DNA of 37,966 nt from a virus. Positions 1-37,966 of this stretch are shown one piece after another (positions within the stretch are counted from its first letter, which is position 1; the number at the start of each line of letters is the position of its first letter). The notes below the pieces were generated by a model. That model had not been told where the DNA came from, did no database searches, and was given only the letters and a program-made list of their open reading frames with translations. Made by a program: the position numbers and the translations under genes. The stretch spans positions 1-37,966 of the IMG/VR virus record IMGVR_UViG_3300028416_000035. One strand, given 5' to 3'.

Positions 1-135
1 AGGAGAAACTGACCCAAATAAGATGGATAATAGTTCTAATTTCTTAGGAGAAACTGACCCAAATAAGATGGATAATAGTTCTAATTTCTTAGGAGAAACG
101 AACGTATCAAACTTCAATAATAGTTCTAATTTCTT
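1..135 (+). repeat. Three tandem 45-bp repeats encoding NSSNFLGET units
   Basis: Bases 1-45 and 46-90 are identical. Bases 91-135 match at both ends but differ in the middle, changing DPNKMD to NVSNFN. A partial fourth unit begins at 136 (GGAGAAACTACACC). The period is a multiple of three and keeps the frame, giving 15-residue repeats at the N-terminal side of the structural protein. The array probably extends upstream of the window. Confidence 0.95.
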
Positions 136-2161
136 AGGAGAAACTACACCATCTAATTTCAACTTTGAGCCAAGTCATGAAAAAACTGCTAAAACGCCAA
201 GTGAAGTTAATTACTTATCAGATATACACGCTAGTGGGTTTACATCTAAATTTGGAAATAAAGATGATACTAAATTCATTGGAATAAATCCAAACAATAC
301 TATATTTGATAGTACCAATTCAAAGTTTAGTAATTTCCAAAATTCATTTCCAGGTATAAGTTTTACACCAGGGTATGGTAGCTTTAAACTAAATAGTAGT
401 TCAACATCCGATACGCAAAGATATAACCCAGATAGGAAATATTATATAAATAATAATATAGCCACCGATGGAATATCACAACTACAAGATTTGAATGGCT
501 CACCATCATTTTTAGAAAAAGCATACAATAAATTTAACCTAAAAGATGATTCATTCAATACAACGATTCCATTTTTAAATCATCCATTAATACTACGTGG
601 TATTCAGAAAAAGAATGGTAATCCAGAAGATTACGGACAGTTTGGATTATCCTTTGATGATGGGTTTATAAGAGGTGGTACAATATCATCAACGACACGA
701 GCATTAGTTGATACTGCACGAATTGGTTCTTGGTTGTTATCACCAAAGGGTCAGTTATGGAGTATTAAGCAAGTTGGAATGCAGAGGTTAAACAAATCAA
801 ACAAAATATGGACACCCGCTAATTTACTTACAGCAGTTGGTATACAGCACTTAGGATTAAAGCCAAATAGAAGTGGGTTATTACCATTTAATACACCATT
901 AAAACGTGAGGGTGGCGCTGGTGAAAAATTAGAAAATATATACAGATTAGATGGAATTTCATATCGTAAGCCAGTAGTTAGGGTTGGATTACCACTAGCC
1001 GGTGGTGGTGATTTGATAGGTGGGTTTGATTCATTTTATGGTATTGGGTTAACTGTTACAACTAGATATGATGATACGTTTGATAACGAGTCAAAAAGAA
1101 GTGCTGATGAAAAGGCCGAATACAATCAGAAGTTTGACCCATTTATCAACAAAAAAGCAAACTTACCACTACCCGGTATACAATTTATAGATACCTATGA
1201 AGAATCAATACCGAGCGCTGATGATGAAAAGAAAACGTTTGGTTTGGGTGGGATTGACCCTACACAACAAACTAATAAGAATGTAAAAATATCATCAGTT
1301 GTATCGGATGAACGTAATCTTGCTGATAATACACCTAATATAAAGAAATATGCTACCATTGCGTATGGTAACATACCCAATAGAGAAGCTGGTAGTACTG
1401 GATTTAATGACTTTAGAAGTTTATTATCATCTAATGATGTAAACAATAAGATAGCAAAGAGTGATAATTACAATGAATTCAATGTGAATACACGTACTAA
1501 TTTCAGAGATACTGGTAAAATTGGTGCTAATAGAAGTGAATGGTGGTATACAAGTAAAAATTCAGCAGAAAATAATAACAATGACCGATATGATTTAATA
1601 AATGCAGACGATATTGGGGATTCTGAATTAAATGATTTAGTACATTTATGGTTTCAAGTAGAGGGTGGTAGTAAAAAAATACAATTTAGAGGAACTGCTA
1701 ATAGTATTAGTGAAACATTTTCACCATCATGGGATTCTATAAAATATAATGGAAGAGCGGATTCAGCGCATAAATATTCATCTTTTGAGAGAAGTTTATC
1801 ATTTGGTTTTAGGGTAGTAGCCACATCAAGAATTGAAATGAAGCCGATTTGGAATAAATTACAGAGGTTATCAACATACACAATGCCCACATACGATAAT
1901 AGTGGTTTGGGGTATAAGGGTAATTTAATTAAATTTAGATTGGGTAGTTTGTGGAATAATAAACTAGCATTTATAGAATCACTTTCATATACTATGATTG
2001 ATGATATGTCTTGGGAAATTTCAATGCTAGGTGGTAACGAACCAATTGGCGAATTACCAAAAGGTGTGGATATACAAATTGGCTTAAAAATATTAGATGA
2101 CAAGATTCCACAGCTGAATCAAAAAGTATATGACTTTAATAGTATTAAAAATTGGAGTTAG
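2..2161 (+). CDS. Large virion (tail/baseplate-type) structural protein, 5' end missing
   Basis: The reading frame is open from base 2 and already inside a repeat, so the true start lies upstream of the window; about 719 residues are visible. The N-terminal part has 15-residue repeats built on NSSNFLGET, followed by a low-complexity Asn/Ser/Phe/Gly-rich region (to about residue 130) likely to be flexible. The remainder is a globular domain without a motif I recognise. It ends in a region rich in aromatic residues (ESLSYTMIDDMSWEIS) and then GELPKGVDIQIGLKIL, a style of C-terminus seen in phage tail-tube or baseplate-associated proteins. The next genes are LysM/gp53-like and hub-like, which supports a tail role. 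The function is inferred from context only; no enzymatic motif was seen. Confidence 0.7.
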   Translation, partial: GETDPNKMDNSSNFLGETDPNKMDNSSNFLGETNVSNFNNSSNFLGETTPSNFNFEPSHEKTAKTPSEVNYLSDIHASGFTSKFGNKDDTKFIGINPNNTIFDSTNSKFSNFQNSFPGISFTPGYGSFKLNSSSTSDTQRYNPDRKYYINNNIATDGISQLQDLNGSPSFLEKAYNKFNLKDDSFNTTIPFLNHPLILRGIQKKNGNPEDYGQFGLSFDDGFIRGGTISSTTRALVDTARIGSWLLSPKGQLWSIKQVGMQRLNKSNKIWTPANLLTAVGIQHLGLKPNRSGLLPFNTPLKREGGAGEKLENIYRLDGISYRKPVVRVGLPLAGGGDLIGGFDSFYGIGLTVTTRYDDTFDNESKRSADEKAEYNQKFDPFINKKANLPLPGIQFIDTYEESIPSADDEKKTFGLGGIDPTQQTNKNVKISSVVSDERNLADNTPNIKKYATIAYGNIPNREAGSTGFNDFRSLLSSNDVNNKIAKSDNYNEFNVNTRTNFRDTGKIGANRSEWWYTSKNSAENNNNDRYDLINADDIGDSELNDLVHLWFQVEGGSKKIQFRGTANSISETFSPSWDSIKYNGRADSAHKYSSFERSLSFGFRVVATSRIEMKPIWNKLQRLSTYTMPTYDNSGLGYKGNLIKFRLGSLWNNKLAFIESLSYTMIDDMSWEISMLGGNEPIGELPKGVDIQIGLKILDDKIPQLNQKVYDFNSIKNWS

Positions 2162-2170
2162 CTTTAATTT

Positions 2171-2467
2171 ATGGAACGGTACAATAAAATAGAAATAGAA
2201 AAAAATACGTTAGGTAAGCGGTATTATAAAACAGTTAGATATCCAGAAATACCCAAGTCGGTATCGGATATCTATATAGTTGGGCAAGCTGGTGATAGAA
2301 TCGACCTATTAGCACAAAAATACTATAATGATATAACATTGTGGTGGATAATCGCCAGAGCTAACAATATAGGAAAGGGTGATTTGGTAGTACCACTGGG
2401 TAAGCAATTAAGAATACCAACAAACACAATAAAACTCGTTACAGAATTCAATAAATTAAATAGTTAA
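2171..2467 (+). CDS. LysM-like baseplate wedge protein (gp53-like)
   Basis: This 98-residue protein has a central LysM-like fold signature. It runs from VGQAGDRIDLLAQKYYND (about residues 37-54) through LWWIIARANNI to PLGKQLRIP. This matches small LysM-type tail proteins, including the baseplate wedge subunit gp53 of T4-like phages, where the fold serves in protein-protein or peptidoglycan contact. It lies 9 nt after the large structural gene and 4 nt before the hub-like gene, a common tail-operon order. ATG start; the upstream TTTAATTT has no Shine-Dalgarno. The family call is fairly firm, while the exact baseplate position is inferred. The alternative is a tail-completion LysM protein of other myoviruses. 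Confidence 0.7.
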   Translation: MERYNKIEIEKNTLGKRYYKTVRYPEIPKSVSDIYIVGQAGDRIDLLAQKYYNDITLWWIIARANNIGKGDLVVPLGKQLRIPTNTIKLVTEFNKLNS

Positions 2468-2471
2468 AGTT

Positions 2472-4400
2472 ATGGCAGATTTTGATTTTAGTCCAGAGTT
2501 CAATGCAGATGTTAAATTAGAACTTGATAGGCGGATGGATTTAATAGCAAGTAAGGATTCAGAATGGAACTATAGAAAATATGCGTATTTTTACATCGAA
2601 TCTATAAAAAGTACTATAACCGCTAACAATTCAGATAGTGATTTTTTACCAATATTTGCATTATTACCTGATGGCGATTTACGTATTGGGACTGTTGAAC
2701 CAAGCGGATATTTAAAAGCATTTCATTCTGACGAAAATGATATAAGAACTTTGAAACCAGTGCTAACATCCGCTACGATAAAGGCGACTGGTGGTGGTGA
2801 TTTATATAACGCTTATATATCTGAAGTTGATGTATCTTTTAAGGTATATACTTTAGATGATTTGGAAAAAGTACAAAATGAATTATTTACATTAGGTGCT
2901 AAAGTACGTGTAAGTTATGGTTGGTTAGGTGAAAATAATCCAAATATATTGAATGGCGACCTTATAATAAATGTTTACAACTTTGGATTTACAATGAGTT
3001 CCGATGGTACTTTCGATTGTAAAATAAATGGACTTACTGAGGGTGTATTTATGGGTAGTCAGAGTATATCGGGTACTGTAACTTTAAGTGATAGTGAAAC
3101 AAACGCATTAGGTACTAACTCAGCAAATCCAGCAACACTACCACAAGCTTTATTATCAAAGGCATATTCGTTATTTGGTGTTACTGATGGTGATACTTCA
3201 AATGTGGGGGGTTTAGACAGCGTTGGAGCTATGATTAGTAAAGAAGATACTACTGATAAAACCGTATATTATATGTCTTTATTAAATGAAATCGTAAACA
3301 CTAATGAACTTAAACAAATAGTAACACCATATATATCATTTGGCGATTTGGTTAAATTTATAAATAAAAGTGTAAATGATAATGAAGTTAGATTTAACTT
3401 TCATACTGATTCAAATTTAGTAGAGATAAAATCATCAACACCTGAAAGTATATATGGCTCCGCAGACCCACGAAAGTTTATATTCCCAAATAATATGGCT
3501 AAGTATGGTGAAAACTCTAACTTTGTACAAACCGTACCAAGTGATTATAAAATTCAAAATATATTGGTAAGTATATGGGTGGTATCGTTTTATTACGATA
3601 GCTTATCCAAACGAAAAAATGAAAAATTGATACCGCCAGATATGAGTTCTTTGATACGAGCGTTATCAAATGATATAAATAGATTATCGGGTGGGTTAGT
3701 AGATATACAAGTAGCACCAGAACAAGAAAGTGGTGAACCATCAAATACAAAATTCAAAAACAAATATCAGATATTTAATAATACAGAAGTTCAAAAACAA
3801 GAATCACCATCAGACCCATACCTATTTGAAGTTTTAAGTAAGAAGAGTATAGTTAAGGAAGTCAGTATAGATACTGATTTTGATGTTGATACTATGTTGA
3901 TTATGTCAATAAATAGAGTAAAGCGTGGTGAATTTAATATAAAACCACTGGAAAAATTATACCCAACGTTAAGAAATAAATTAAATAATTTAAATAGATT
4001 TTTAGCACCACTACAACCACAACAGCAAACTAATACAGTAAATCAGCTGTTCGTTATACCAGGAGTAACACCCCCGAGTAAAGAAACAATAACTAAACTT
4101 AATATTATAGATACGGGTATAAGTGATAACAAAGCTACTAACGTTGCAGATATAATGCGTAAAGCTCTCACCGGTGATAATAATGAGGGTACGTTTATAT
4201 CATTACCATTTTACATAAAATTAGGCGTTACATTGGATGGTATAAACGGCATTGGATTTCTCCAACCAATATCGGTTGATAGATTACCACAAAACTACAG
4301 AGATAATGTTAAATTTTTAATAACTGGCGTAGAGCATTCATTTGATGGTCAAGGTGGTTGGGAAACTAAATTAGATACCGCTATGAAAGTTGGAAAATAA
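2472..4400 (+). CDS. Baseplate hub-like structural protein
   Basis: This 642-residue protein is probably the central tail hub (gp27/gpD-like). Residues about 130-200 contain VRVSYGW followed by a strand-rich segment with FGFTMSSDGTFDCKINGL. The C-terminus reads FLITGVEHSFDGQGGWET, a pattern typical of hub proteins, whose last domain ends in a V-x-H-x(n)-W-x-T segment. There is a Gln/Pro-rich linker near residue 515 (LQPQQQTN). Placement directly after a LysM-like protein also fits a hub. I see no lysozyme domain, so if this is the hub, any tail lysozyme is encoded elsewhere. This is an inference from motif style and gene order, not a clear family match. Confidence 0.5.
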   Translation: MADFDFSPEFNADVKLELDRRMDLIASKDSEWNYRKYAYFYIESIKSTITANNSDSDFLPIFALLPDGDLRIGTVEPSGYLKAFHSDENDIRTLKPVLTSATIKATGGGDLYNAYISEVDVSFKVYTLDDLEKVQNELFTLGAKVRVSYGWLGENNPNILNGDLIINVYNFGFTMSSDGTFDCKINGLTEGVFMGSQSISGTVTLSDSETNALGTNSANPATLPQALLSKAYSLFGVTDGDTSNVGGLDSVGAMISKEDTTDKTVYYMSLLNEIVNTNELKQIVTPYISFGDLVKFINKSVNDNEVRFNFHTDSNLVEIKSSTPESIYGSADPRKFIFPNNMAKYGENSNFVQTVPSDYKIQNILVSIWVVSFYYDSLSKRKNEKLIPPDMSSLIRALSNDINRLSGGLVDIQVAPEQESGEPSNTKFKNKYQIFNNTEVQKQESPSDPYLFEVLSKKSIVKEVSIDTDFDVDTMLIMSINRVKRGEFNIKPLEKLYPTLRNKLNNLNRFLAPLQPQQQTNTVNQLFVIPGVTPPSKETITKLNIIDTGISDNKATNVADIMRKALTGDNNEGTFISLPFYIKLGVTLDGINGIGFLQPISVDRLPQNYRDNVKFLITGVEHSFDGQGGWETKLDTAMKVGK

Positions 4401-4401
4401 T

Positions 4402-5028
4402 ATGGATAAACGACAGCGAGCATATTATACAAAAGGTCAGATTAACACTGGTTTAGAAACTGATGGTGGTGAATGGATGTTAATTGATGGGACTGAATAC
4501 ATAGGTCAATTTCACTCATATACTACAGATGAGGTATTTACAGAATCATCATTCGTAGATGGTATATCAAAAAAACTAATACCGTATGTAAACGTTGTTC
4601 TACTAAACCAGCAAAATGAAATTGGTATTGATTTAAACAAAAACTTTGAATATGATAATATCAAAACCTTAGATATAGTACAATCATCAAAACCAAATCC
4701 GGCAGTTGTACAACCTACTGATAAGGATAGAACAAACGGATATTTCACAAGATACTTTGCCTCAAAAGTAAATGATGATGAAATAATAGAAATAACACTA
4801 AATGATTTTAAGAATATAGGTTCTGAAAATGGATTGGATGGAAATTTATATAAAGTATTCAGCTTGAGGTGGAAAATAGCTGGACCTGTAAACGATGAAT
4901 TCGATTTACTTGGTAATGTAACGGAATCTGGCATACTTGATACCAACATTAGAACTATCAATTTAAAATCACAAATATACCCATCTCTAAAACAAACAAT
5001 TACAGATTTTTTAGAATTTTCTTACTAA
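4402..5028 (+). CDS. Probable baseplate/tail structural protein, unknown function
   Basis: This 208-residue protein begins MDKRQRAYYTKGQI. ATG 4402 is preferred: it follows the hub-like gene's stop by 1 nt, whereas an in-frame TTG at 4390 would add only four residues. The sequence is acidic and strand-rich, with GGEWMLIDGTEYIGQFHSY near the N-terminus and an extended C-terminal tail (RTINLKSQIYPSLKQTI). Position at the end of the tail cluster, just before an early-type promoter, suggests the last gene of a structural operon. I do not recognise the family; a role in the baseplate is inferred from neighbours. Confidence 0.6.
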   Translation: MDKRQRAYYTKGQINTGLETDGGEWMLIDGTEYIGQFHSYTTDEVFTESSFVDGISKKLIPYVNVVLLNQQNEIGIDLNKNFEYDNIKTLDIVQSSKPNPAVVQPTDKDRTNGYFTRYFASKVNDDEIIEITLNDFKNIGSENGLDGNLYKVFSLRWKIAGPVNDEFDLLGNVTESGILDTNIRTINLKSQIYPSLKQTITDFLEFSY

Positions 5029-5029
5029 T

Positions 5030-5062
5030 TTTGAAACAAATCACAAACAGACATCGTATAAT
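5030..5062 (+). promoter_or_regulatory. Sigma70-like promoter P1 (paired with the one at 25323)
   Basis: TTGAAA (5031-5036) and TATAAT (5057-5062) are separated by 20 nt, with AGACATCGTATAATATA around the -10. The same elements, the same spacing and a similar downstream leader (AAGAGGTTGGGAATT) recur at 25323-25377. It would drive the small genes beginning at 5123. The spacing is longer than the usual 17, so the functional -35 could differ. Confidence 0.65.
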
Positions 5063-5122
5063 ATAGTGTAAGAGGTTGGGAATTTAGCCTTGTTATTAAC
5101 CCACTTAAATAAATCATACATT

Positions 5123-5371
5123 ATGAAAATTATAGATATAATTATAAACGAAACAAAAGGGTATTATTGCCATGCAATTGAAGTGAGCGATACATATGAG
5201 ATTAAATCAAAAGTTGAGCAAATAATCAGCAAATTTAAGTATAGCCACCTAGTAGAGGATATTATTGAATTTTTTGATACGATGTCAATTTACTATTTAG
5301 GTGAGAACCCAGAAATGGAAGAAGCCGTTTATGATTTCAACTTCAGAGAAAACATACAAAATACAATTTAA
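5123..5371 (+). CDS. Small protein of unknown function (82 aa)
   Basis: ATG 5123 gives MKIIDIIINETKGYYCHAIE. An in-frame TTG at 5090 is less likely because it adds a sequence with no coding character and shortens the promoter leader. The protein is acidic, with a C-terminal half of predicted helices (VEDIIEFFDTMSIYYL). It is the first gene after promoter P1, followed 15 nt later by another small ORF. I do not recognise the family. Small early genes in this position in phages often modify host functions, but nothing in the sequence shows this here. Confidence 0.6.
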   Translation: MKIIDIIINETKGYYCHAIEVSDTYEIKSKVEQIISKFKYSHLVEDIIEFFDTMSIYYLGENPEMEEAVYDFNFRENIQNTI

Positions 5372-5386
5372 TAAAAAAACTACGTT

Positions 5387-5593
5387 ATGAAAACTAAGGA
5401 AATTTACTCGGTATCTGTACAAATTATAGATAGGGGAATAACATTCCCACTATTAAGAAAAATTGAAGTACATCCACCAATTGAAAAAAACATAAAAGCG
5501 TATCTAAATAAATATAAATATGCTATGGATTTAAGTAATAAATTCGATTTTGAGATAACATCATCAAGCTTAGTGGGATGGGGAACTGTATGA
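5387..5593 (+). CDS. Small protein of unknown function (68 aa)
   Basis: This 68-residue product starts MKTKEIYSVSVQIIDRG from an ATG with the leader AAAAAAACTACGTT. It has an alternating strand pattern (IYSVSVQII) followed by a Tyr/Lys-rich helix (NIKAYLNKYKYAMDL). The stop codon TGA (5591-5593) overlaps the ATG of the following 38-residue membrane protein as ATGA, so the two are probably translationally coupled. No family was recognised. Confidence 0.6.
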   Translation: MKTKEIYSVSVQIIDRGITFPLLRKIEVHPPIEKNIKAYLNKYKYAMDLSNKFDFEITSSSLVGWGTV

Positions 5594-5706
5594 TGCTTTT
5601 TTACATATTACTACTCATATTAAGTCCGTACATATTTTGGGTTGTGTTTTGGAAGTGTTTTGCTATAGGTATCCTTATAGTGAGATACTTTCGTAAAAAA
5701 CTTTAA
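5590..5706 (+). CDS. 38-aa single-span membrane protein
   Basis: ATGATG at 5590 overlaps the upstream stop codon as ATGA. The product begins MMLFYILLLILSPYIFWVVF and continues to a basic tail VRYFRKKL. Residues 2-32 are almost wholly hydrophobic, enough for one or a hairpin pair of membrane segments; the basic C-terminus would face the cytoplasm by the positive-inside rule. Very short phage membrane proteins may act as holin-like, superinfection-exclusion or host-takeover factors, but no specific family is recognisable. The ATGA coupling and the clear hydrophobic pattern support a real gene despite its size. Confidence 0.6.
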   Translation: MMLFYILLLILSPYIFWVVFWKCFAIGILIVRYFRKKL

Positions 5707-5713
5707 CGTTTTC

Positions 5714-5756
5714 TTAACATTTAAAACTTGACTTTTTGATACTATTATCGTATCTT
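5714..5756 (+). promoter_or_regulatory. Strong promoter P3 upstream of rtcB-like gene
   Basis: TTGACT (5728-5733), 17-nt spacer, TATCTT (5751-5756). A 25-bp block starting TTAACATTTAAAACTTGACT is repeated exactly at 7261-7285, and ATTATCGTATCTT follows in both. The -10 fits TAnnTT. The leader to ATG 5815 is about 50 nt, unlike the short leaders of the TATATT promoter family. Confidence 0.75.
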
Positions 5757-5814
5757 AGTATTGTGAGTTGATTTGGTGAGATTGTATTGTTTATTGAAAA
5801 TTAAAAATTATAAA

Positions 5815-7194
5815 ATGAAAGTTACAGGTTATACTTTAATTGATTTAGGTTATACACCAGCTTCGTGGTTTGGAGAAGCAATCCAAATAGCAAATGAAAA
5901 CGGATTGGTGGGTGATGGTTTAATAACTTTTTTGGATACTATGGCTCCAACTGAAGTTCCAACAATCGAACCACATACTGTATCAGTACCGTTCCATAAA
6001 AATATTAAAGCAGAAACTGCAGATGAAATTTCTAATGTTGAATCTGTATTTAATACTATGAACGTATTGATGAAAACACCAACTGTGGTTGATGGTGTGG
6101 TTATGCCAGATGCATGTCCGACTGGAGCTATTGGTCAAATACCAGTAGGTGGGGTTGTTGTTACAAAAAATGCAATACATCCATCAATGCATTCCGCTGA
6201 TATATGTTGTTCAGTTATGGCAACATCATATGGGGATTGTTTACCTAAAGATGTATTAGATGTGGCACATTCAATCACTCACTTTGGATGGGGTGGACGT
6301 GGGGATACTATGTTTGAGTTACCTATGGGACTTTTAGAAAAAATAAAAGGAAACTCATTCTTAAATGACCCACATACAATCAAAATAGCTAAAGAACATT
6401 TAGGAACTCAAGGAGATGGAAACCATTTCTTATTTGTTGGGGTTTCTGAAAACACTTCTGAAACATATATGGTAACACATCATGGTTCACGAGGGTTCGG
6501 TGCTCGTCTTTATAAAAAAGGAATGAAATTGGCTGAAAAGTTTCGTCAACAACTATCTCCTAACACTTTAAAGAAAAACGCATGGATACCTTATGATACA
6601 CCTGAAGGTGTTGAATATTGGGAAGCATTACAAATTGTGCGTGAGTGGACAAAACTCAACCATACTGTGATTCATCAAAAAACTTGTGAGTTACTTGGTG
6701 TTGAACCTACTGTACGTTTTTGGAATGAACATAACTTCGTATTTAAAGTTGATGATTTATTTTATCACGCGAAAGGAGCAACACCACTTGATGATAAATT
6801 TGTTCCAGATTCATATGGTGGATTACGTTTAATTCCTTTGAATATGTCAGAACCAGTTTTGGTTGTTAAAGGTGAGGAAACCGAAACTAACCTTGGGTTC
6901 GCTCCACATGGTGCGGGTCGGAATGTTTCTCGGGCAGCTCATATCAAATCAAAAGTGGGACGTACATTTCAAGAAGTTTTTGACGAAGAAACTTATGGAT
7001 TGGATGTTCGGTTTTTTTCTGGAATAATAGATTTATCTGAGTTACCATCCGCATATAAAAACGCAGATATGGTTCAATCTCAAATTGAAGAGTTTGGATT
7101 GGGTGATGTTGTTGACCGTATCATGCCTTACGGATGTATTATGGCAGGTGGTTCTGATTTCGTTCCTAAATGGAAGTTGAAAAAAATGATGTAA
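5815..7194 (+). CDS. rtcB: RtcB-family RNA ligase
   Basis: This 459-residue RtcB-type 3'-phosphate/5'-OH RNA ligase would be a cytosolic Mn2+- and GTP-dependent RNA-repair enzyme. Signature residues are all visible: D129 and C132 (SADICC, equivalent to DVGCG), N203-H204 (GDGNHF), H223 (THHGSRG), H306 (NEHNF), KGATP at 320-324, and the guanylylated histidine H365 in APHGAGRNVSR. It ends AGGSDFVPKWKLKKMM. ATG 5815 is chosen because upstream in-frame codons lie in the leader of promoter P3. It is single, with its own promoter and a terminator-like hairpin after it. RtcB in phages is thought to repair RNAs, such as tRNAs, cut by host defence nucleases; that role is inferred here. Confidence 0.93.
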   Translation: MKVTGYTLIDLGYTPASWFGEAIQIANENGLVGDGLITFLDTMAPTEVPTIEPHTVSVPFHKNIKAETADEISNVESVFNTMNVLMKTPTVVDGVVMPDACPTGAIGQIPVGGVVVTKNAIHPSMHSADICCSVMATSYGDCLPKDVLDVAHSITHFGWGGRGDTMFELPMGLLEKIKGNSFLNDPHTIKIAKEHLGTQGDGNHFLFVGVSENTSETYMVTHHGSRGFGARLYKKGMKLAEKFRQQLSPNTLKKNAWIPYDTPEGVEYWEALQIVREWTKLNHTVIHQKTCELLGVEPTVRFWNEHNFVFKVDDLFYHAKGATPLDDKFVPDSYGGLRLIPLNMSEPVLVVKGEETETNLGFAPHGAGRNVSRAAHIKSKVGRTFQEVFDEETYGLDVRFFSGIIDLSELPSAYKNADMVQSQIEEFGLGDVVDRIMPYGCIMAGGSDFVPKWKLKKMM

Positions 7195-7198
7195 ATAT

Positions 7199-7232
7199 AA
7201 AGGCCTAGCTAAAACGTTGGGTCTTTATTTTT
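7199..7232 (+). terminator. Probable intrinsic terminator after rtcB-like gene
   Basis: AAAGGCC (7199-7205) can pair with GGTCTTT (7220-7226), with one G-U pair, enclosing a 14-nt loop; ATTTTT follows. It sits 4 nt after the rtcB-like stop codon and just before promoter P4. The stem is short, so termination may be partial. Confidence 0.5.
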
Positions 7233-7260
7233 AAAACTTTAACATTTCCTTAACAAAACG

Positions 7261-7303
7261 TTAACATTTAAAACTTGACTTTTTGCTATCATTATCGTAT
7301 CTT
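7261..7303 (+). promoter_or_regulatory. Strong promoter P4, near-copy of P3
   Basis: TTGACT (7275-7280), 17-nt spacer, TATCTT (7298-7303). It shares a 25-bp identical upstream block with P3 (5714-5738). The 62-nt leader is T/G-rich (TTGTTGGGGTTGTTTGG) and ends at ATG 7366. It drives a run of four or five small genes. Confidence 0.75.
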
Positions 7304-7365
7304 TATATAGTAAGGTTGTTGGGGTTGTTTGGTTGTTTTTTCACTTTTTAAATTTACTTTTTGTT

Positions 7366-7509
7366 ATGAATTATTCTGTTTTTCTTTCTGGTTCTCAAGT
7401 TGTTATCACTTCCAATGGTGAAACTGTTAAAGTTATTGAAGTTAACCCAAATACGGCTGTTGAAAAGTTCGTTGAAATCTCTAATAAAATTAAAAATCTT
7501 TATAAATAA
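7366..7509 (+). CDS. 47-aa protein of unknown function
   Basis: The ATG at 7366, the first after promoter P4, opens a 47-residue ORF: MNYSVFLSGSQVVITSNGET, then a VKVIEVNPNT strand and a Lys-rich helix ending KIKNLYK. The strand-turn-strand pattern resembles a small beta domain. Codon choice (GTT, TCT, GGT) is regular and coding-like, and the next small gene starts 7 nt after the stop. No family was recognised. Confidence 0.6.
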   Translation: MNYSVFLSGSQVVITSNGETVKVIEVNPNTAVEKFVEISNKIKNLYK

Positions 7510-7516
7510 ATAAACT

Positions 7517-7654
7517 ATGAAATACAAAGTTAAAAATGGTATGGGTGGTAGTAGAAATGGGAAGAGTAGAACTGAAAAAACTGAGATTCTTAAAAAACTA
7601 TCTAAAAAAGCAAGGAGAACGGAAGGTAAAAAAATAACAAAATTATACAAATAA
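7517..7654 (+). CDS. 45-aa highly basic protein
   Basis: MKYKVKNGMGGSRNGKSRTE and then KTEILKKLSKKARRTEGKKI, ending TKLYK. About a third of the residues are Lys or Arg, with a flexible Gly/Ser N-terminus and a basic helix. Such a composition is compatible with binding nucleic acid, but no family is recognisable. It lies 7 nt after the previous small ORF and 7 nt before the next, with the same ATAAATAA-type leaders, which supports a real gene in a small-gene operon. Confidence 0.55.
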   Translation: MKYKVKNGMGGSRNGKSRTEKTEILKKLSKKARRTEGKKITKLYK

Positions 7655-7661
7655 ATAAATT

Positions 7662-7877
7662 ATGATAAAGAAAAAAACTAATAAAAATACTATAGAAATC
7701 GACTTAACAGGTCATCAAGGAAATGCATTTTATTTATTAGGAGCCGCCAGTAAATTATCTAAAAAATTAGGTTTGGATACTTCGAAAATATTAAATGAAA
7801 TGAAAAGTGGTGATTATGAGAATCTAATAAAAGTATTCGATAAGTATTTCGGAAATTATGTAACACTTTATATATAA
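7662..7877 (+). CDS. Conserved-looking small phage protein (71 aa)
   Basis: This 71-residue product contains IEIDLTGHQGNAFYLLGAA and, towards the end, EMKSGDYENLIKVFDKYFG. This combination (a small strand, a Gly-Asn-Ala-Phe turn, then SGDYENLI) is in my recollection a pattern repeated in small hypothetical proteins of many large phages, but I know of no assigned function. ATG start with leader ATAAATAAATT. It is part of the P4 small-gene operon. Confidence 0.65.
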   Translation: MIKKKTNKNTIEIDLTGHQGNAFYLLGAASKLSKKLGLDTSKILNEMKSGDYENLIKVFDKYFGNYVTLYI

Positions 7878-7882
7878 AAATT

Positions 7883-8236
7883 ATGAATTATCCAATTGAA
7901 ACATCCAAAATGTTCATTGAACTAGCAGCATCTCTGAAAGATGCTAACATAGAACTTAGTTATGAAACCGACTCTGAGTATTATAGAGAACACAAAACTC
8001 TAAAGTTTACAGATATACCAGAAGTTCGTACTACTTGGTTTTGCTCAGAAAACGGTAAGTATGATGGATTTTATTTTAATAAAAGAGATTACGACTATTT
8101 TACTATTGAAGAAGATGAAACGATAAAAAGGGTATTTGACAAATATCCAAATGTACGTTTAATGTGTATAGACCCACCTGAAAGGGGTGAGGACTTATGG
8201 CTGGCATCATCTATATCATTTATAATTAAAAATTAA
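7883..8236 (+). CDS. Protein of unknown function (117 aa)
   Basis: This 117-residue acidic protein is rich in Tyr, Asp and Glu (YETDSEYYREHK; YFNKRDYDYFTIEEDETI). Its pattern is that of a small alpha/beta domain, with a C-terminal strand RLMCIDPPERGEDLWLAS. There is no signal peptide or membrane span. It begins 5 nt after the previous stop and is the last gene before promoter M1. I do not recognise it; the acidic surface could suit a protein inhibitor or DNA mimic, but that is only a guess. Confidence 0.6.
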   Translation: MNYPIETSKMFIELAASLKDANIELSYETDSEYYREHKTLKFTDIPEVRTTWFCSENGKYDGFYFNKRDYDYFTIEEDETIKRVFDKYPNVRLMCIDPPERGEDLWLASSISFIIKN

Positions 8237-8247
8237 AAGTAAGAAAA

Positions 8248-8277
8248 TTTGTATAATTCAAAATAATTTTTTATATT
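8248..8277 (+). promoter_or_regulatory. TATATT-family promoter M1
   Basis: TTTG (8248-8251), 20-nt gap, TATATT (8272-8277). ATG 8283 begins only 5 nt after the -10, so the transcript is probably leaderless or nearly so. It belongs to a family of eight similar sites in this window. Confidence 0.75.
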
Positions 8278-8282
8278 CTTAA

Positions 8283-9527
8283 ATGATTAACATTCTCCAA
8301 AGCGGAAATATTGATATGGAATCGGTGTATATTCATCCAATATGGGCGGATATACACTTACATTATATGTCTAATACATTATCTGCGTTGTATATATTCG
8401 ACATAAATAGTGGTGGTGAATACCTAATAAATATGGGTAACATTGATAACCATACAACAGATTTAAATAAGTTTACATTTGATTTTTCAGAAGCATATGT
8501 TTATGATAAGAAAGCATTAATTAGTGTACTTCAGTTTAAGAATATGTATGATGCTAATTTGGTAAAATATCTTAATGTAAACACTATATTAAAGGAACAT
8601 CAAACACCATGCCATACATTCTTCTATAGAAAGTTTAGCAAGTTAAAAAATGTAAACAATATAGTACCTACGTATAAACATATAGAATCCATCAGAAAAA
8701 CAAAAGATGAATTTCTATCGTTTTACAAAAGTGGGTTGGTGAGTTTTGTGAAAAAATTTGACAATTTTTACATAAATTCATTAAGTCATATAGAACAAAA
8801 CGGATTTTATACCAAAAGTGGATATGAGTGGACAAAATATAATTTATATACTCTAACATCACGCCCATCAAATACATTCAATGGTACTAACTATGCGGCA
8901 TTGAAGAAAGATGATGGCACACGTTCTAGATTTGTTAGTAGGTTTGATGGTGGTAAGTTAGTACAATTTGATTACGATGCCTATCATCCAAGATTGATTG
9001 GTAAGTTAGTCGGCGAACCTATACCAAATAACATATCAGGCCATCAATATCTTGCAAACTTATATGGTGTATCCAAAGATGAATCCAAAGGTATAACGTT
9101 TAGGCAGTTATACGGTGGTGTTGAAATTGATTATTTACATATACCATATTTTAAAAAGGTTAGCAAATTCATAAGTAATCTTTGGAATGAGTTTAATAAT
9201 GTGGGTTGGGTAGAAACCCCATTGGGTAGGAAATTAAAATTAGAAAATCTAAATGGTATTAACAAAAATAAGTTATTTAACTATATGTTACAAGCAGCTG
9301 AAACCGAATTAAATATGGTTGCTTTAAGTAAACTGATTTCGGTTTTAAAGGATAAAAAATCTAAAATAGTGTTATATACATATGATTCATATTTATTAGA
9401 TATACATCCATCGGAAATTGATTTATTACCTAAAATAAAGATATTTATAGAAAGTAATGGCTTTAAAGCTAATACTGAGATTGGATACGATTACTCTAAT
9501 ATGAAAAAGGAACTGATATATGAATAA
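8283..9527 (+). CDS. Family-A DNA polymerase core (T7/PolI-like), divergent
   Basis: This 414-residue protein carries the palm and fingers motifs of family-A polymerases. There is a TLTSRPSN segment (190-197, equivalent to T-x-R-x-S). Motif A is FDYDAYHPRL with catalytic D230 and R237. Motif B has K269, F273 and Y277-G278, spaced exactly as K758/F762/Y766 of E. coli Pol I. Motif C is TYDSY with D368, where the usual HDE is YDS. The roughly 170-residue N-terminus has no clear 3'-5' exonuclease carboxylates, so a proofreading domain seems absent or degenerate. A complete family-B polymerase is also present at 22061. It overlaps the next gene by 8 nt. A specialised or repair polymerase, or an accessory subunit, is inferred. 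Confidence 0.8.
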   Translation: MINILQSGNIDMESVYIHPIWADIHLHYMSNTLSALYIFDINSGGEYLINMGNIDNHTTDLNKFTFDFSEAYVYDKKALISVLQFKNMYDANLVKYLNVNTILKEHQTPCHTFFYRKFSKLKNVNNIVPTYKHIESIRKTKDEFLSFYKSGLVSFVKKFDNFYINSLSHIEQNGFYTKSGYEWTKYNLYTLTSRPSNTFNGTNYAALKKDDGTRSRFVSRFDGGKLVQFDYDAYHPRLIGKLVGEPIPNNISGHQYLANLYGVSKDESKGITFRQLYGGVEIDYLHIPYFKKVSKFISNLWNEFNNVGWVETPLGRKLKLENLNGINKNKLFNYMLQAAETELNMVALSKLISVLKDKKSKIVLYTYDSYLLDIHPSEIDLLPKIKIFIESNGFKANTEIGYDYSNMKKELIYE

Positions 9528-11730: not shown

Positions 11731-11733
11731 TGA

Positions 11734-12218: not shown

Positions 12219-12237
12219 AATAAAAACTTAAAATAAT

Positions 12238-19833: not shown

Positions 19834-19863
19834 TTTGGATAATTCAAAAAAGTTTTGTATATT
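19834..19863 (+). promoter_or_regulatory. TATATT-family promoter M4
   Basis: TTTG (19834-19837), 20-nt gap, TATATT (19858-19863), 16 nt before ATG 19880. The same gap sequence style (AATTCAAAA) is seen at M1. It would drive the HTH and Mom-like genes. Confidence 0.8.
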
Positions 19864-19879
19864 GAAAAAAGTTATAAAG

Positions 19880-22061: not shown

Positions 22062-24568
22062 TGTATAAAAATATATATTTCGAAAAAAATGAAAACCTGA
22101 TGCACGTTTGGGATGATGAACGTGGTTATTACACTAAAAAATATCGTAGATATGGTTATGTGAAAGATGGTAATGGTTCGCATAAATCAATTTATGGTGA
22201 ACGGTTGAAACGGATAAATTATTGGAATAAAGATGATGACATTGAATTATACGAATCGGATGTAAATGAGGTAACTAGATTTCTAATCGATGAATATGGT
22301 GATTCTGATGAAATATCAAAAGGACATGTTACATTGACATTTGATATTGAGGTAGAAATGAATAGTGGGTTACCAAATGTGCATGAAGCTCAAAATGAAA
22401 TAACATCTGTAGCATTCCACGATTCAGCAACCAATGATTATTATGTATATGTGGTAAGTATTGGTGAAGAAATAAACAAATCAATTAAAGGGGCTAAAGT
22501 ACGTTCATTTAATACAGAACGTGATTTACTTTTTGCATTTGTTACATCTTGGGAAGAGGTATCGCCTAGTATAATTACGGGCTGGAATATTGATTTCTTT
22601 GATGTAACTTACCTATATAATAGATTGGATGTTTTATTTGGTAAAGCTACCGCTAATAGATTATCCCCAATCGGGAAAGTACATTGGAACAAATACAGAA
22701 AACGTTATATTATAGCAGGTGTATCTGCGTTAGACTATATAGCATTATTTAAAAACTTTACATATACCGAATATCCAAATTATCGGTTGGATACCATCGC
22801 AAGATTAGAATTGGGTAGAGGTAAGATTGAATATGAAGGTAATTTAGACCAATTATTTAGAGATGATATTGAAAAGTTCATTGAATATAACCTAGTGGAT
22901 GTTGAATTGGTTGTTGATATGGATAAAAAGTTGCAGTTCATTGAACTAGCACAGGCAATTTGTCATGCCGGACACGTATTTTATGAAGATTTTCTGTTTT
23001 CATCAAAATGGTTAGAGGGGGCAATATTAACATTTCTTAGACGGAATGGTAAGATTGCTCCAAATAAACCTAAACGTAGAAATTCCGAATACGAAACTAA
23101 TACTAAATTTACAGGTGCTTATGTAAAACAACCAAAACCCGGTCTTTACAAATGGGTATATGATTTGGATTTAACATCCCTATACCCATCAATTATTATG
23201 AGTATAAACATATCACCTGAAACTAAGGTTGGTAAAGTTCGTGGATATTCAGCAGAAGCACATATGCGTGGGCAAATGCAAAGTTATGATATAACTGATG
23301 TATCCGGCAAACAGTACCCACCGATGGATAATTCTACATTTTTGGATTTTTTAGATAAAATGAATCTAAGTATAGCATCTAATGGTGTGATGTATAGTAA
23401 ATCACAAGTTGGTGTAATACCTGAAATCTTAAATGTATGGTTTGATAAGAGGGTTGATTATAAAAATCTAATGAAAAAACATGGTAAGGCTGGTGATGAT
23501 GCTTTATACAAATTTTACCATCAACGGCAGTTAGTTCAAAAGATTATGTTGAATTCGTTATATGGTGTATTAGGATTACCCGCTTTCAGATTTTATGATA
23601 TAGATAATGCAGAAGCAACAACCTTAACCGGTCAAACAGTAATTAAAACTACTGAAATGATTGCTAATAAATATTATGTTGATAATATAGGTAAATCTGC
23701 GGATTACAATGTATATACTGATACTGATTCAGTATTTTATGAGGCAGCACCGTTAGTAAAATCAAGAAATCCAAATATAAATGTGGATTCAGATGAAGAA
23801 ATGATACCTGCTATTTTATCTGTAGCTAAGGAAGTACAAGACCATTTAAATGTTAGTTATGATTTCATGTCTAAAAAGTTGTTTAATGTTGAAAATCATC
23901 GATTTGATATTAAGCAAGAAACAATCGCAAAAAGTGGGTTTTGGGTATCGAAAAAAAGATATGCTCAATGGATTATCAATGATAATAGTGTTAATTGTGA
24001 TAAATTAGATGTAAAGGGGTTAGATGTAAAACGTAGTTCATTCCCAACTTATTTCAAAGAAGTTATGTCTACTGTATTAATGGATATACTCAAAGATACA
24101 GATAAAAATACGATTGATGCCTATATTCTTAAAAAACGTGATGATATGAAAATTACAAATTTCATTGATATTGCAAAAAACTCAGCAGTAAAGCATATGA
24201 GTAAATATACATTTAACAATCAAGCTATAGGGCAGTTTGCGAAAGGAACACCTGCGCATGTTAAAGCAGCACTTACTTACAATCAGTTATTAAAGTATTT
24301 CAACGCCGCATACAAATACGAGCCAATGAAAGATGGTGATAAGATTAAATGGGTATATTTGAAACCCAATCCGCTGGGGTTAGAATCTGTTGGATTGACA
24401 GGATATAACGACCCTAAAGAAATTTTGGATGTGGTGGAAGAACATATACATTATGATTTGATATGGGAAAAGGAATTGGAAAATAAATTGGATGATTTTT
24501 ATAAAGCTATGGGTTGGGATAAGCCAAATCCTAATTTAAATAAAGCATCACAATTTTTTGGATTTTAA
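22061..24568 (+). CDS. 43: DNA polymerase, family B (gp43-like)
   Basis: This 835-residue replicative polymerase has proofreading. Exonuclease motifs are D95-I-E97 (TFDIEVEM), N175/D177 (TGWNIDFFD) and Y276-x3-D280 (YNLVDVELV). Polymerase motifs are motif A DLDLTSLYPS (367-376), motif B KIMLNSLYGVLG (494-505) and motif C YTDTDS (552-557). The C-terminus (DKPNPNLNKASQFFGF-like tail) may contact the sliding clamp, as the last residues of gp43 do. T4 gp43 has 898 residues, so this is slightly shorter. It overlaps the preceding GT stop by 1 nt and is followed 52 nt later by the clamp, the usual gp43/gp45 neighbourhood. Confidence 0.96.
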   Translation: MYKNIYFEKNENLMHVWDDERGYYTKKYRRYGYVKDGNGSHKSIYGERLKRINYWNKDDDIELYESDVNEVTRFLIDEYGDSDEISKGHVTLTFDIEVEMNSGLPNVHEAQNEITSVAFHDSATNDYYVYVVSIGEEINKSIKGAKVRSFNTERDLLFAFVTSWEEVSPSIITGWNIDFFDVTYLYNRLDVLFGKATANRLSPIGKVHWNKYRKRYIIAGVSALDYIALFKNFTYTEYPNYRLDTIARLELGRGKIEYEGNLDQLFRDDIEKFIEYNLVDVELVVDMDKKLQFIELAQAICHAGHVFYEDFLFSSKWLEGAILTFLRRNGKIAPNKPKRRNSEYETNTKFTGAYVKQPKPGLYKWVYDLDLTSLYPSIIMSINISPETKVGKVRGYSAEAHMRGQMQSYDITDVSGKQYPPMDNSTFLDFLDKMNLSIASNGVMYSKSQVGVIPEILNVWFDKRVDYKNLMKKHGKAGDDALYKFYHQRQLVQKIMLNSLYGVLGLPAFRFYDIDNAEATTLTGQTVIKTTEMIANKYYVDNIGKSADYNVYTDTDSVFYEAAPLVKSRNPNINVDSDEEMIPAILSVAKEVQDHLNVSYDFMSKKLFNVENHRFDIKQETIAKSGFWVSKKRYAQWIINDNSVNCDKLDVKGLDVKRSSFPTYFKEVMSTVLMDILKDTDKNTIDAYILKKRDDMKITNFIDIAKNSAVKHMSKYTFNNQAIGQFAKGTPAHVKAALTYNQLLKYFNAAYKYEPMKDGDKIKWVYLKPNPLGLESVGLTGYNDPKEILDVVEEHIHYDLIWEKELENKLDDFYKAMGWDKPNPNLNKASQFFGF

Positions 24569-25392: not shown

Positions 25393-26610
25393 ATGAGTTT
25401 TTGGGATAATGGTTCGGAAAAATTAGTTTTTGATTTTGAAAAACAGAAATCGGATTTGATTGATAATTTAGATTACTTAAATTCAATGACTGTTGAAGAA
25501 CAAACACTTTATAAGAAGTGGGTGGAACTGCAAGAGCCGGCAATAATATCAAGAAAATCTGAGATATCATCACTTTATGATGTTCAATGGACTCCAACTG
25601 ATATTAATAATTTGGAACAAACGATATCTGAAATTGAAAACATTGAACCATACGTTGAAATTGTTGAAAGTGGTAATGACTCAACAAAATGGACATATAT
25701 TCGAAAAATGATTCATACAATGAGCTTTACAGCTAATCCAGGCCGTAATGTCAAAGTCAATGTTAAGGATAGAACGACCGGTAAGTTATTAGGTCAAATA
25801 TCCTTAGCATCTGATGTAACATCATTAGGCGTGCGGGATAAGTATATTGGGTGGACTAAAGATGATAAATTTAAAAAAGGTAAACTCAACCATACAACCA
25901 TAGCATCTACTATAGTATGTACACAGCCACTTGGTTATAATTTTTTAGGTGGTAAGTTGATAGCTACGATGGCTACAGCACCAGCCATTAGGGATTATTG
26001 GAAGAAAAAATACGGCCAAACATTAATAGCGGTGGGTACTACATCTTTGTATGGAATACATTCACAGTACAACGGAATTCCACATTATAAAACATTAGGT
26101 GAATCAGCTGGAAAGATTTCTTTGAAACCGGATGACAAGTTCTATGACCCTTGGCATCAATGGTTGAAAGAAAACCGAGCTGATTGGTATACTAAAGCAA
26201 TTACTAATGAGCGAATTAGAAATGGTAAATCTATGGGAACTGGTAAGGGTGCTAGTGGGCCTGTTAGTGGTATTAAACAAAAAATAATAAGTAGGATATT
26301 CAAAGAATGCGGTATCAAACAAACGCAATATCATCATGGATTTAAAAGAGGTGTATATCTCGCTATGATGTATGATAATGGTTGTGATTTTTTAAGAGAT
26401 GATATACCTGAATCCGATTTGGTTATGAAGAAAAAGTTTGTTGATGGTGTAGATAATATAAGTAAGTGGTGGAAGAAAAAAGCAATAAGAAGATACACCA
26501 AATTACATTCAGAAAATAGATTAAAACCTGAGCATTTATATTATGTTGATGCAATAGGTATGAGTTGGGAACAAATGAAAAATAATTATTTAAAAGAAGT
26601 TGGAAGATGA
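25393..26610 (+). CDS. DUF4338-like protein (DruA-type domain)
   Basis: This 405-residue protein contains a pattern I associate with DUF4338, the domain of DruA from Druantia anti-phage systems. It reads LLGQISLASDVTSLGVRDKY then IGW (about 134-157), KLIATMATAPAIRDYWKKKY (about 195-214), and VGTTSLYGIHSQYNGIPHYK then TLGES. The order 'similar to older substrates - R-D-x-x-I-G-W - core W-x-x-x-Y-G - Y-x-x-L-G' is present. The N-terminal 110 residues are helical and acidic (TISEIENIEPYVEIVE). The C-terminus is basic (KWWKKKAIRRYTKL). It overlaps gp44 by 4 nt (ATGA). The biochemical function of this domain is not established; a role with DNA is inferred from the neighbours. Confidence 0.6.
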   Translation: MSFWDNGSEKLVFDFEKQKSDLIDNLDYLNSMTVEEQTLYKKWVELQEPAIISRKSEISSLYDVQWTPTDINNLEQTISEIENIEPYVEIVESGNDSTKWTYIRKMIHTMSFTANPGRNVKVNVKDRTTGKLLGQISLASDVTSLGVRDKYIGWTKDDKFKKGKLNHTTIASTIVCTQPLGYNFLGGKLIATMATAPAIRDYWKKKYGQTLIAVGTTSLYGIHSQYNGIPHYKTLGESAGKISLKPDDKFYDPWHQWLKENRADWYTKAITNERIRNGKSMGTGKGASGPVSGIKQKIISRIFKECGIKQTQYHHGFKRGVYLAMMYDNGCDFLRDDIPESDLVMKKKFVDGVDNISKWWKKKAIRRYTKLHSENRLKPEHLYYVDAIGMSWEQMKNNYLKEVGR

Positions 26611-27539: not shown

Positions 27540-27542
27540 ACT

Positions 27543-28886: not shown

Positions 28887-28912
28887 GAATTATCATAAAT
28901 ATTTTGTATATT
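28884..28912 (+). promoter_or_regulatory. TATATT-family promoter M7 fused to a terminator
   Basis: TTTG (28884-28887) begins in the terminator T-run; 19-nt gap, TATATT (28907-28912), then ATG 28919 after only 6 nt. A transcript starting at or very near the AUG is expected. The compact terminator-promoter overlap resets transcription between two operons. Confidence 0.8.
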
Positions 28913-28918
28913 AAAGCT

Positions 28919-29863
28919 ATGAAGAACAGTAAGGTAAATAATATATTTAGGTTTGGAATTGTAGAACCAAATGATACAGATACTAAGGTATCATATTCAC
29001 AATATACCCAATACGCAAATTGTCCACATCAATGGAAATTAAACTATATGGATGGTAACCGGTCATTCGACCCATCAATCCATTTGGTATTTGGTACTGC
29101 TATGCATGAAACACTGCAACATTGGTTAGATGTGATGTATAATAAATCCGTATCTGAAGCTAATGAGCTAGAGCTGGGTACTATTTTGTATAATCATATG
29201 TTAGCAGAATACAAAGTGATGTATGAAAATTGCGGATTCCATTTTAGTGATAATTCAGAAATGAAAGAATTTTTAGAAGATGGTATCAATATTCTAAACT
29301 TTGTAATAAAAAATAGAGTTGATTACTTTAACACAAGACAATTAAAATTGGTTGGTATTGAATTACCAATATATTCAAAAGCTATGGAATCCCATAATGT
29401 ATATATGCGTGGTTTCTTAGATTTGGTTTTTGAAGATACCTATCAAAACAAATTGTTTATATGGGATATCAAAACATCAACACGTGGTTGGAACAAATGG
29501 CAAAAGGCTGATAAAACTAAAACAGCACAATTGGTGTTGTATAAAAAGTTCTTATCAGAACAATACGGGTATCCAATTGATAGGATTGATGTGAAATATT
29601 TCATAGTTAAACGTAAGTTGAGTGAGGGTATGATGTACGCCCAAAAACGGGTACAGATGTTTTCACCTGCTAATGGTTCTGTAACCTTAAATAACATAAC
29701 TAAAAGTTTCGAATCATTTATAAGGAACTGTTTTAATGAAGATGGCTCATATAGAGTTGACTCTGAGTTTCCAGCCATAAAGGGTAAGAACAACAAAAAC
29801 TGCAAATGGTGTCCTTATAAAACTGATTATGAAAAATGCCCAAAGGAAAATAGAATAAAATGA
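28919..29863 (+). CDS. Cas4/AddB-like PD-(D/E)XK nuclease with Fe-S cysteines
   Basis: This 314-residue RecB-type exonuclease-like protein has H63 (GTAMHE), D168 (MRGFLDLV), D183-x-K185 (IWDIKTS) and Q204-x3-Y208 (TAQLVLY), forming the classical nuclease core. Four cysteines, C35 (YANCPHQWKL), C295, C298 and C307 (CKWCPY...KCP), have the one-plus-three placement of the [4Fe-4S] cluster in Cas4 and AddB. ATG 28919 is preferred over the TTG at 28904, which lies in promoter M7. The stop overlaps the SLOG-like gene by 4 nt. End processing during recombination-dependent replication, or degradation of host DNA, is inferred; there is no CRISPR here. Confidence 0.85.
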   Translation: MKNSKVNNIFRFGIVEPNDTDTKVSYSQYTQYANCPHQWKLNYMDGNRSFDPSIHLVFGTAMHETLQHWLDVMYNKSVSEANELELGTILYNHMLAEYKVMYENCGFHFSDNSEMKEFLEDGINILNFVIKNRVDYFNTRQLKLVGIELPIYSKAMESHNVYMRGFLDLVFEDTYQNKLFIWDIKTSTRGWNKWQKADKTKTAQLVLYKKFLSEQYGYPIDRIDVKYFIVKRKLSEGMMYAQKRVQMFSPANGSVTLNNITKSFESFIRNCFNEDGSYRVDSEFPAIKGKNNKNCKWCPYKTDYEKCPKENRIK

Positions 29864-30321: not shown

Positions 30322-30354
30322 TAAACTTTAAAAATATATTTATTATAAAAGGTT

Positions 30355-33059: not shown

Positions 33060-33062
33060 AAG

Positions 33063-36244: not shown

Positions 36245-36249
36245 CAAAT

Positions 36250-36837: not shown

Positions 36838-36847
36838 TTTGTATATT
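36818..36847 (+). promoter_or_regulatory. TATATT-family promoter M8
   Basis: TTTG (36818-36821, in the end of the methyltransferase gene), 20-nt gap, TATATT (36842-36847), and ATG 36853 only 5 nt later. A leaderless or near-leaderless transcript is expected for the glycosyltransferase that follows. Confidence 0.75.
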
Positions 36848-36852
36848 TAATT

Positions 36853-37605
36853 ATGAAAAAGAATATAGTATTTTTTACTTGTATGGATAAAGCACCTGAT
36901 ATATTAGATTATAAGGAGTGGTGTATAAAATCTTGGAAAATTTGGTGTAAAAAACATGATGTTGAAATATTTATACTATCAGATGAATTAAGAGATAAAG
37001 CTATTATGAAACCAACTTGGCAGAGGTGGCATGTTTTTGAAATATTAGATGCTAACAATATAGAATATAATCAAGTTGCATTAGTTGATGTTGATATAAT
37101 GATACATCCGAATGCACCTAATTTCTTTGATGAAACCGATGGTGAATATTCTGGTGTTAATGATGACTTGATGGTAGAATGGGTACATAATAGTATTGTT
37201 GGTTATCAAGATATGTTCCCAAATACAAAGTTTGATTGGACAACCTATATCAACAATGGATTTATTGTACTGTCGCCAAAACACAAAAAATTATGTAAAA
37301 CAATTACGGATTTTTATTATGAAAATGAAAGCGAACTTAGGAATAGACAGCATGTAACTCTTAAAAAAGGTTCAGACCAAACACCCGTAAATTATTTAGT
37401 TAGAAGGGAAGGGTATACAATCAATCATCTTAGTAAAAAGTGGAATTTTACTCAACTACACCAGCGTGGTGTATTACACAATGGGTTGTTTATAGACTGT
37501 GCTTGGATGTGGCATTTTAATGGGTTTGATAAAACTTTAAGAAATAATTTAATGAAACAAACTTGGGGTATTTTAAAACAAAGATTTAATTTAAATGGAA
37601 AGTAA
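36853..37605 (+). CDS. GT-A fold glycosyltransferase
   Basis: This 250-residue protein starts MKKNIVFFTCMDKAPDILDY. The nucleotide-sugar and metal site is VALVDVDIMIHPNAPNFFD (about 76-94; DVD motif). TYINNGFIVLSPKHKKLCK (about 131-149) is the conserved acceptor-side strand of galactosyltransferase-like GT-A enzymes, and GSDQTPVNYLVRREG follows. It has its own promoter M8 with a minimal leader and is 1 nt upstream of another methyltransferase gene. Sugar and acceptor are unknown; it is part of the glycan cassette that runs out of the window. Confidence 0.78.
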   Translation: MKKNIVFFTCMDKAPDILDYKEWCIKSWKIWCKKHDVEIFILSDELRDKAIMKPTWQRWHVFEILDANNIEYNQVALVDVDIMIHPNAPNFFDETDGEYSGVNDDLMVEWVHNSIVGYQDMFPNTKFDWTTYINNGFIVLSPKHKKLCKTITDFYYENESELRNRQHVTLKKGSDQTPVNYLVRREGYTINHLSKKWNFTQLHQRGVLHNGLFIDCAWMWHFNGFDKTLRNNLMKQTWGILKQRFNLNGK

Positions 37606-37606
37606 A

Positions 37607-37966
37607 ATGGAAAATTTGACAGAAAGACAAAAACACGAATTGGATAAGTATTTAAATGTTTATAAACAAGGAACTACATCTACACCTGGTATTTATGGTC
37701 ACAAAAATTGGGGTAGTGGTGTTTATGAATATATTAAGAAAATAAAACCAAACTCTATATTGGATGTTGGTTGTGGGAAAGGTGTTTTTGTGAATGATAT
37801 GGTTTCAAAATTAAATATACCAATAGTTTATGGCACTGATATTGCATCAGTATCAACTAATAATCATATAAAAAATGATAAAATTATATGGTTAGATTGT
37901 ATGGCACATAATCTTGATGTAGGTGATAATATGTTTGAATATGTTGTATCTTTTGATTGCTTAGAG
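37607..37966 (+). CDS. SAM-dependent methyltransferase, 3' end missing
   Basis: The frame is open to the last base of the window (120 codons visible). The SAM motif I is SILDVGCGKGVFVNDM (about residues 49-64), the acidic strand-2 position is in VYGTDIASVS, and EYVVSFDCLE at the very end matches motif IV (F-D-x-V/D-S-x-x-x-x-E). ATG 37607 is 1 nt after the previous stop; an ATG at 37595 in another frame closes after two more codons. A second methyltransferase beside GT genes supports a decorated glycan. The full substrate domain is outside the window. Confidence 0.82.
   Translation, partial: MENLTERQKHELDKYLNVYKQGTTSTPGIYGHKNWGSGVYEYIKKIKPNSILDVGCGKGVFVNDMVSKLNIPIVYGTDIASVSTNNHIKNDKIIWLDCMAHNLDVGDNMFEYVVSFDCLE

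Follow-up and report, generated by a model that had tools for sequence, protein, structure and literature searches.

Does a stretch of viral DNA that lacks the tetramer GATC over its whole length owe this to composition, or to a lasting selection pressure, and what could such a pressure be? The stretch in question, called the window here, is a 37,966-bp IMG/VR virus record (IMGVR_UViG_3300028416_000035) with 31.6% guanine plus cytosine, and its genes, nearly all on the + strand, were assigned by open reading frame (ORF) listing and profile searches to T4-like structural, replication and glycan functions. These genes mark the window as part of an uncultivated T4-like myovirus genome, and among isolates Microcystis phage Mel-JY01 comes closest to it in DNA polymerase (48% identity); the gp43-like family B DNA polymerase of the window (22061-24568, + strand; phrog_262, E = 5e-185) was used with trees for phage placement. 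A previous sequence-only reading had claimed that GATC was wholly absent where ~100 sites should occur by chance, and had explained this by strong, sustained counter-selection.

The exact count of GATC across positions 1-37966 was 0, which bears out the claimed absence, and the earlier estimate of the expected number was accurate. Base composition predicted 105.6 sites, a second-order Markov model 146, dinucleotide-preserving shuffles 89.0 ± 8.5, and 500 runs of a synonymous codon shuffle, in which synonymous codons were permuted while proteins and codon usage were kept fixed, gave 83.3 ± 6.1 (range 66-105); the four null models therefore span 83-146 sites. For a Poisson mean of 83 the probability of zero is near 1e-36. 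Among all 256 tetramers GATC was the most depleted in the window, followed by CGCG (3 observed, 13 expected) and CATG (42 observed, 130 expected), and neither several GATC sites nor an expectation near zero, the two outcomes named beforehand as counting against the claim, was found. Hence, against a codon-preserving background, GATC shows the under-representation that is looked for in restriction-site avoidance.

The GATC purge is a property of the clade and is not particular to the window. The count covered 80 viral loci of relatives with polymerase identities of 63-83%, apart from one partial contig at 99%; most of them carried 0-2 GATC per ~20 kb, compared with ~65 expected, and zero or near-zero counts recurred in whole genomes of 167-190 kb. 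In complete or near-complete genomes, observed and expected numbers were 0/550 in G020 (181 kb), 0/592 in Mel-JY01 (190 kb), 0/893 in G074 (169 kb), 1/532 in G030, 13/612 in G024, 19/553 in G009 and 34/485 in G029; in addition, 0/414 were counted in 100 kb of G060 and 0/235 in 59 kb of G073, with which the purge reaches down to ~46% DNA-polymerase identity. Unprotected GATC has been eliminated throughout the clade, to exactly zero in most genomes. In G029 (locus L131), 14 of the 34 sites cluster within the first 9 kb (1-8789), possibly recently acquired DNA.

Phages free of this pressure keep GATC, as seen in T4-like cyanophages, in locus L140 and in one close relative, G061. The outgroup cyanophages had normal or excess GATC (observed/expected: S-CRM01 280/177, P-SSM2 110/78, S-PRM1 156/92, AG-345-P14 219/165), and GATC was not depleted in L140, in a contig of a metagenome-assembled genome (MAG) with 48% identity, or in many relatives with capsid identity below ~63% in a capsid-gene scan. 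G061 (L349-L357), which carries Mom-family and DruA-like genes as the window does, has 497 GATC, i.e. 0.99 of the base-composition and 0.56 of the Markov expectation, and its other tetramers are much as in its relatives, except that CCGG is nearly absent (0.03 of expectation). Since the release in G061 is specific to GATC, the pressure can be lifted for this tetramer alone, and must be external or losable. The strong, sustained counter-selection proposed by the sequence-only reading is thus upheld: the depletion is independent of codon usage, extends over whole genomes across the clade, leaves outgroups unaffected and is lifted in G061. Two possible causes of the release were considered and set aside. 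A PF01555 methyltransferase of G061 (119838-120599) is M.CfrBI-like and its closest plasmid homologues adjoin CfrBI-family endonucleases, whose site is CCWWGG, so that a link to GATC is unproven; the list of lost genes is confounded by the absence of a whole block of adjacent genes and by a possibly incomplete contig.

The few GATC sites that survive in the clade are not scattered over sequence contexts. In the strict set of 23 records, from which the relaxed lineages G029 and G033 were left out, all 52 surviving sites fall in GATCCHGD (H = A/C/T, D = A/G/T) on one strand, while in other contexts none survives of ~7,500 expected in sum. Mom-encoding relatives keep GATC only inside this context, and three of them do so at the neutral rate: GATCCHGD occurs 19 times in G009 (18.3 expected), 13 times in G024 (12.9) and 7 times in G026 (7.1), and the same genomes have no GATC elsewhere, with 667, 655 and 267 expected, respectively. 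Fifteen of 15 additional sites, from further contigs found in the separate capsid-gene scan, also match GATCCHGD, although some are homologous to earlier sites. The reading frame at exempt sites is mostly GAT-CCN-GNN, but other frames and the other strand are also seen. Codon constraint fails to explain the exemption, because all other GAT-C codon junctions are gone and GAC would do equally well.

Presence of the exempt context was then compared with two genes of the window. One encodes a Mom-family DNA modification protein of 266 residues and ‘A’ type (20083-20883, + strand), which belongs to PF25680 (150.5 bits, curated cut-off 27.1; E = 6e-44; phrog_1384, E = 5e-45); the other, between the sliding clamp and clamp loader genes (25393-26610, + strand), encodes a DruA/DUF4338-family protein of 405 residues, which belongs to PF14236 (76 bits, curated cut-off 27; E = 4e-21; PADLOC DruA, E = 3e-19). 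Of 50 related records, 34 carry Mom and 34 carry DruA, and the two sets differ by two short fragments only. The polymerase trees imply four or more losses of Mom (G012/G036, G020/G021, G032/G039/G006 and G074 groups), with DruA gone each time; the two genes were lost together despite several genes lying between them. Exempt-context sites numbered 0 of ~90 expected in Mom-negative records and 59 of ~150 in Mom-positive strict records, and at least one such site was present in none of six Mom-negative and in all nine pooled Mom-positive lineages. As Mom was lost repeatedly, shared ancestry alone explains this pattern poorly. Moreover, Mom exists as two paralogues, A and a tandem B; most Mom-positive relatives carry B, which the window does not. 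A-only lineages (the window, G003 and G060) had 1 exempt site of 15.4 expected, and A+B lineages about 58 of 132.

Other modification genes were also searched for. Within the first set, none of the exempt records that encode Mom matched a methyltransferase profile of PF02086, PF00145 or PF01555, and a Dam-type methyltransferase was not found in the phages. Methyltransferases may have replaced Mom in Mom-negative lineages. Sequences resembling PF01555 methyltransferases, several with broken frames, occur in the Mom-negative G006, G032, G039, G074 and Mel-JY01. A comparison for genes kept in the exempt G009 and G024 and missing from G030 and G020 left one weak candidate, without a link to modification. 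No other Druantia gene was recognised among the scanned proteins of the window, for which the PADLOC scan covered three proteins only and no dedicated search was made.

GATC is not the only purged palindrome, but unlike the others it is purged in common. CATG is purged in G030/G005, ACGT in G014 and its kin, TCGA in the G025 locus and CTAG in Mel-JY01. CATG is fully absent from G030 (0 of 532 expected), G005 (0 of 289) and L224 (0 of 69), where the G030/G005 loci are L112-L120 and L163-L167, and ACGT is fully absent from 13-21-kb stretches of the G014 sub-lineage (L216-L219, L224). Such a combination of a shared GATC purge with lineage-specific loss of other tetramers is as expected from a common cutter plus variable ones. 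CTAG is also depleted in the window (39 versus 79 expected) and in loci L083-L139 and L151-L210, and surviving CTAG is mostly GCTAG or CTAGC (76 of 78 in G030, 61 of 67 in G009, 16 of 17 in the Mom-negative G020, and 29 of 39 in the window). GCTAG/CTAGC is a second exempt context, and it is independent of Mom.

Hints to the host conflict between Bacteroidota and a cyanobacterium. Mel-JY01 is recorded from Microcystis elabens, a cyanobacterium, while among isolates a Polaribacter phage has the closest Mom, and secreted proteins of several relatives have signal peptides with ..AQ at the end, as is typical of Flavobacteriia. Tenacibaculum phage PTm1, whose host is recorded as a member of the Flavobacteriaceae, has been purged independently (2 GATC versus 314 expected in 120 kb), and in other Bacteroidota phages observed/expected GATC lies between 5/71 and 81/85. 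The restriction–modification genes of PTm1 did not qualify as GATC enzymes, since they comprise one Eco57I-type methyltransferase and an endonuclease without a Pfam match. A host search in GTDB genomes returned one distant MAG contig only, and no clear enrichment of the Bacteroidota promoter motif was seen. Thus, the earlier idea of a Bacteroidota host is plausible from the signal peptides, the Mom of the Polaribacter phage and the purged PTm1, but the recorded source of the nearest isolate points elsewhere.

We propose, with a probability of about 0.6, that these phages form a T4-like clade that has long lived under a GATC-cutting nuclease, and that a modification linked to Mom shields GATCCHGD. 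The nuclease would be met in nearly every infection over a very long time, and would be a restriction enzyme or solitary nuclease of the host, probably in Bacteroidota; a host-encoded GATC nuclease that is common but not universal would fit best. A phage modification covering GATCCHGD would block this cutter, the enzyme being presumably Mom, perhaps its tandem B copy, and perhaps needing the DruA-like protein, while the window, with A-type Mom only, would rely on having no sites at all. More specifically, the surviving sites could be a genomic fossil of a Mom-type recognition sequence, with Mom (probably tandem B) and the DruA-like protein modifying GATCCHGD and so uncoupling these sites from the nuclease, a tentative proposal to which we give somewhat less than even odds.

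Several observations weigh against this proposal. The analysis linked no nuclease gene to the GATC pressure and found no host genome. The Mom-positive G063 has seven GATC within GATCCHGD and four outside it. Among lineages with both Mom copies, the exemption is barely used in G030 and G005 (1 site together, 30.6 expected), G025 (1 of 10) and G029 (1 of 20), hence the presence of Mom is insufficient for it. The p-value of about 0.0002 for the division of lineages by Mom comes from a grouping picked post hoc, after the data had been seen, and the neutral-rate match of the exempt context is somewhat flattering, because the HGD part was derived from the same 52, partly homologous, sites. The window itself has no GATCCHGD, with just 2.8 expected, too few to test the exemption there. 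Accordingly, the earlier idea of two coexisting routes, avoidance of the site and Mom modification, finds indirect support in the relatives, where survivors in Mom-encoding genomes are confined to one 8-bp context, and none of its own in the window.

The lineages that carry Mom yet show a weak or absent exemption would also suit another explanation, in which the exempt context reflects the sequence preference of the cutter itself, or a modification enzyme other than Mom that was not recognised. The CTAG context, which occurs with and without Mom, adds to its appeal. But all six Mom-negative lineages lack the exemption, and all nine pooled Mom-positive lineages have at least one exempt site; we consider this explanation rather unlikely, though worth keeping in view. 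It is less probable still that the phages encode a GATC-specific nuclease of their own, for instance for degradation of host DNA, and spare their genomes by lacking the site. In its favour, the purge tracks the phage clade across great divergence and different habitats, and a conserved HTH-HNH protein occurs in every strict genome with coverage of its region, but not in the relaxed G029 and G033. However, phages with ordinary GATC counts (36/31, 81/58 and 88/56) also carry homologues of this protein (49-56% identity), and the Mel-JY01 copy lacks the aligned catalytic His and looks inactive, yet that genome has no GATC. Profiles of MutH/Sau3AI (PF02976) and DpnII (PF04556) had no match over cut-off in 25 phage records, in searches that did not extend to DpnI families and that leave room for a novel family. 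The core PD-(D/E)XK protein of the window (PDDEXK_1, 28904-29863, + strand; PF12705, E = 9e-21), conserved clade-wide, is RecB/Cas4-like, with no evidence for GATC specificity.

MutH-type, methyl-directed mismatch repair, which nicks unmethylated GATC in the host, appears very improbable here. MutH/Dam repair is not known outside Gammaproteobacteria, and the host hints, to Bacteroidota or cyanobacteria, point away from that class; moreover, other tetramers reach zero lineage by lineage, which is a restriction pattern. Such counter-selection against GATC has been proposed for enterobacteriophages (Deschavanne and Radman 1991, cited in PMC5014478). Finally, nothing was found in support of an artefact of composition, codon usage or sampling, which is refuted by the codon-preserving shuffles and by the whole genomes that repeat the result, and its probability is negligible.

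Some further features were noted. A short HNH-endonuclease-like ORF (19835-20083, + strand; phrog_20467, E = 3e-6) is located directly upstream of Mom in the window. A clade-conserved protein at 8283-9527, present alongside the family B polymerase system, has a weak match to family A DNA polymerase (PF00476, below cut-off). In G020 (L088, 7094-9301), the HTH-HNH gene directly precedes a GroEL-like chaperonin gene, and both are conserved clade-wide.

If the preferred explanation of a host nuclease and a Mom-linked shield holds, what a phage DNA-modification enzyme recognises could be read from sequence alone, namely from where forbidden sites persist. A single restriction target can reach absolute zero in ~180-kb genomes and be held there across a deep phage clade. 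The joint loss of Mom and DruA-like genes in at least four lineages, though the genes lie several genes apart, gives a testable lead that the two proteins act together. Avoidance of GATC by phages is known; in the open-access literature searched, we did not find the scale of this purge, the exempt 8-mer or the co-loss of Mom and DruA, and these look new.

Mom of phage Mu modifies adenine in the degenerate context 5′-(C/G)A(C/G)NPy and is believed to shield the phage genome against restriction. The present case is alike in having a phage-borne Mom-family protein (PF25680), but the context would be GATCCHGD, and a DruA-like partner and often tandem A/B copies are present. The genome of phiX174 is about 5 kb in length. 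Restriction-site (palindrome) avoidance is established for phages, and GATC had CB < 1 in each of 46 phages from hosts with an enzyme of that specificity (Rusinov et al. 2018, PMC6286503). As there, phage DNA is poor in a short palindrome, but here the count is zero over 170-190 kb, and the depletion is common to a deep clade and has a measurable exempt context. phiX174 likewise lacks any GATC (PMC5014478), and GATC is wholly absent from both kinds of genome; for phiX174 and the enterobacteriophages the proposed agent is Dam/MutH, whereas here a clade of ~180-kb double-stranded DNA myoviruses is concerned, with hosts unlikely to have MutH. With Druantia, the window shares a protein that matches the DruA family (PF14236, DUF4338), but this protein sits in a phage replication cluster and co-varies with Mom; if the link is true, phage DruA-like proteins would be partners in DNA modification.

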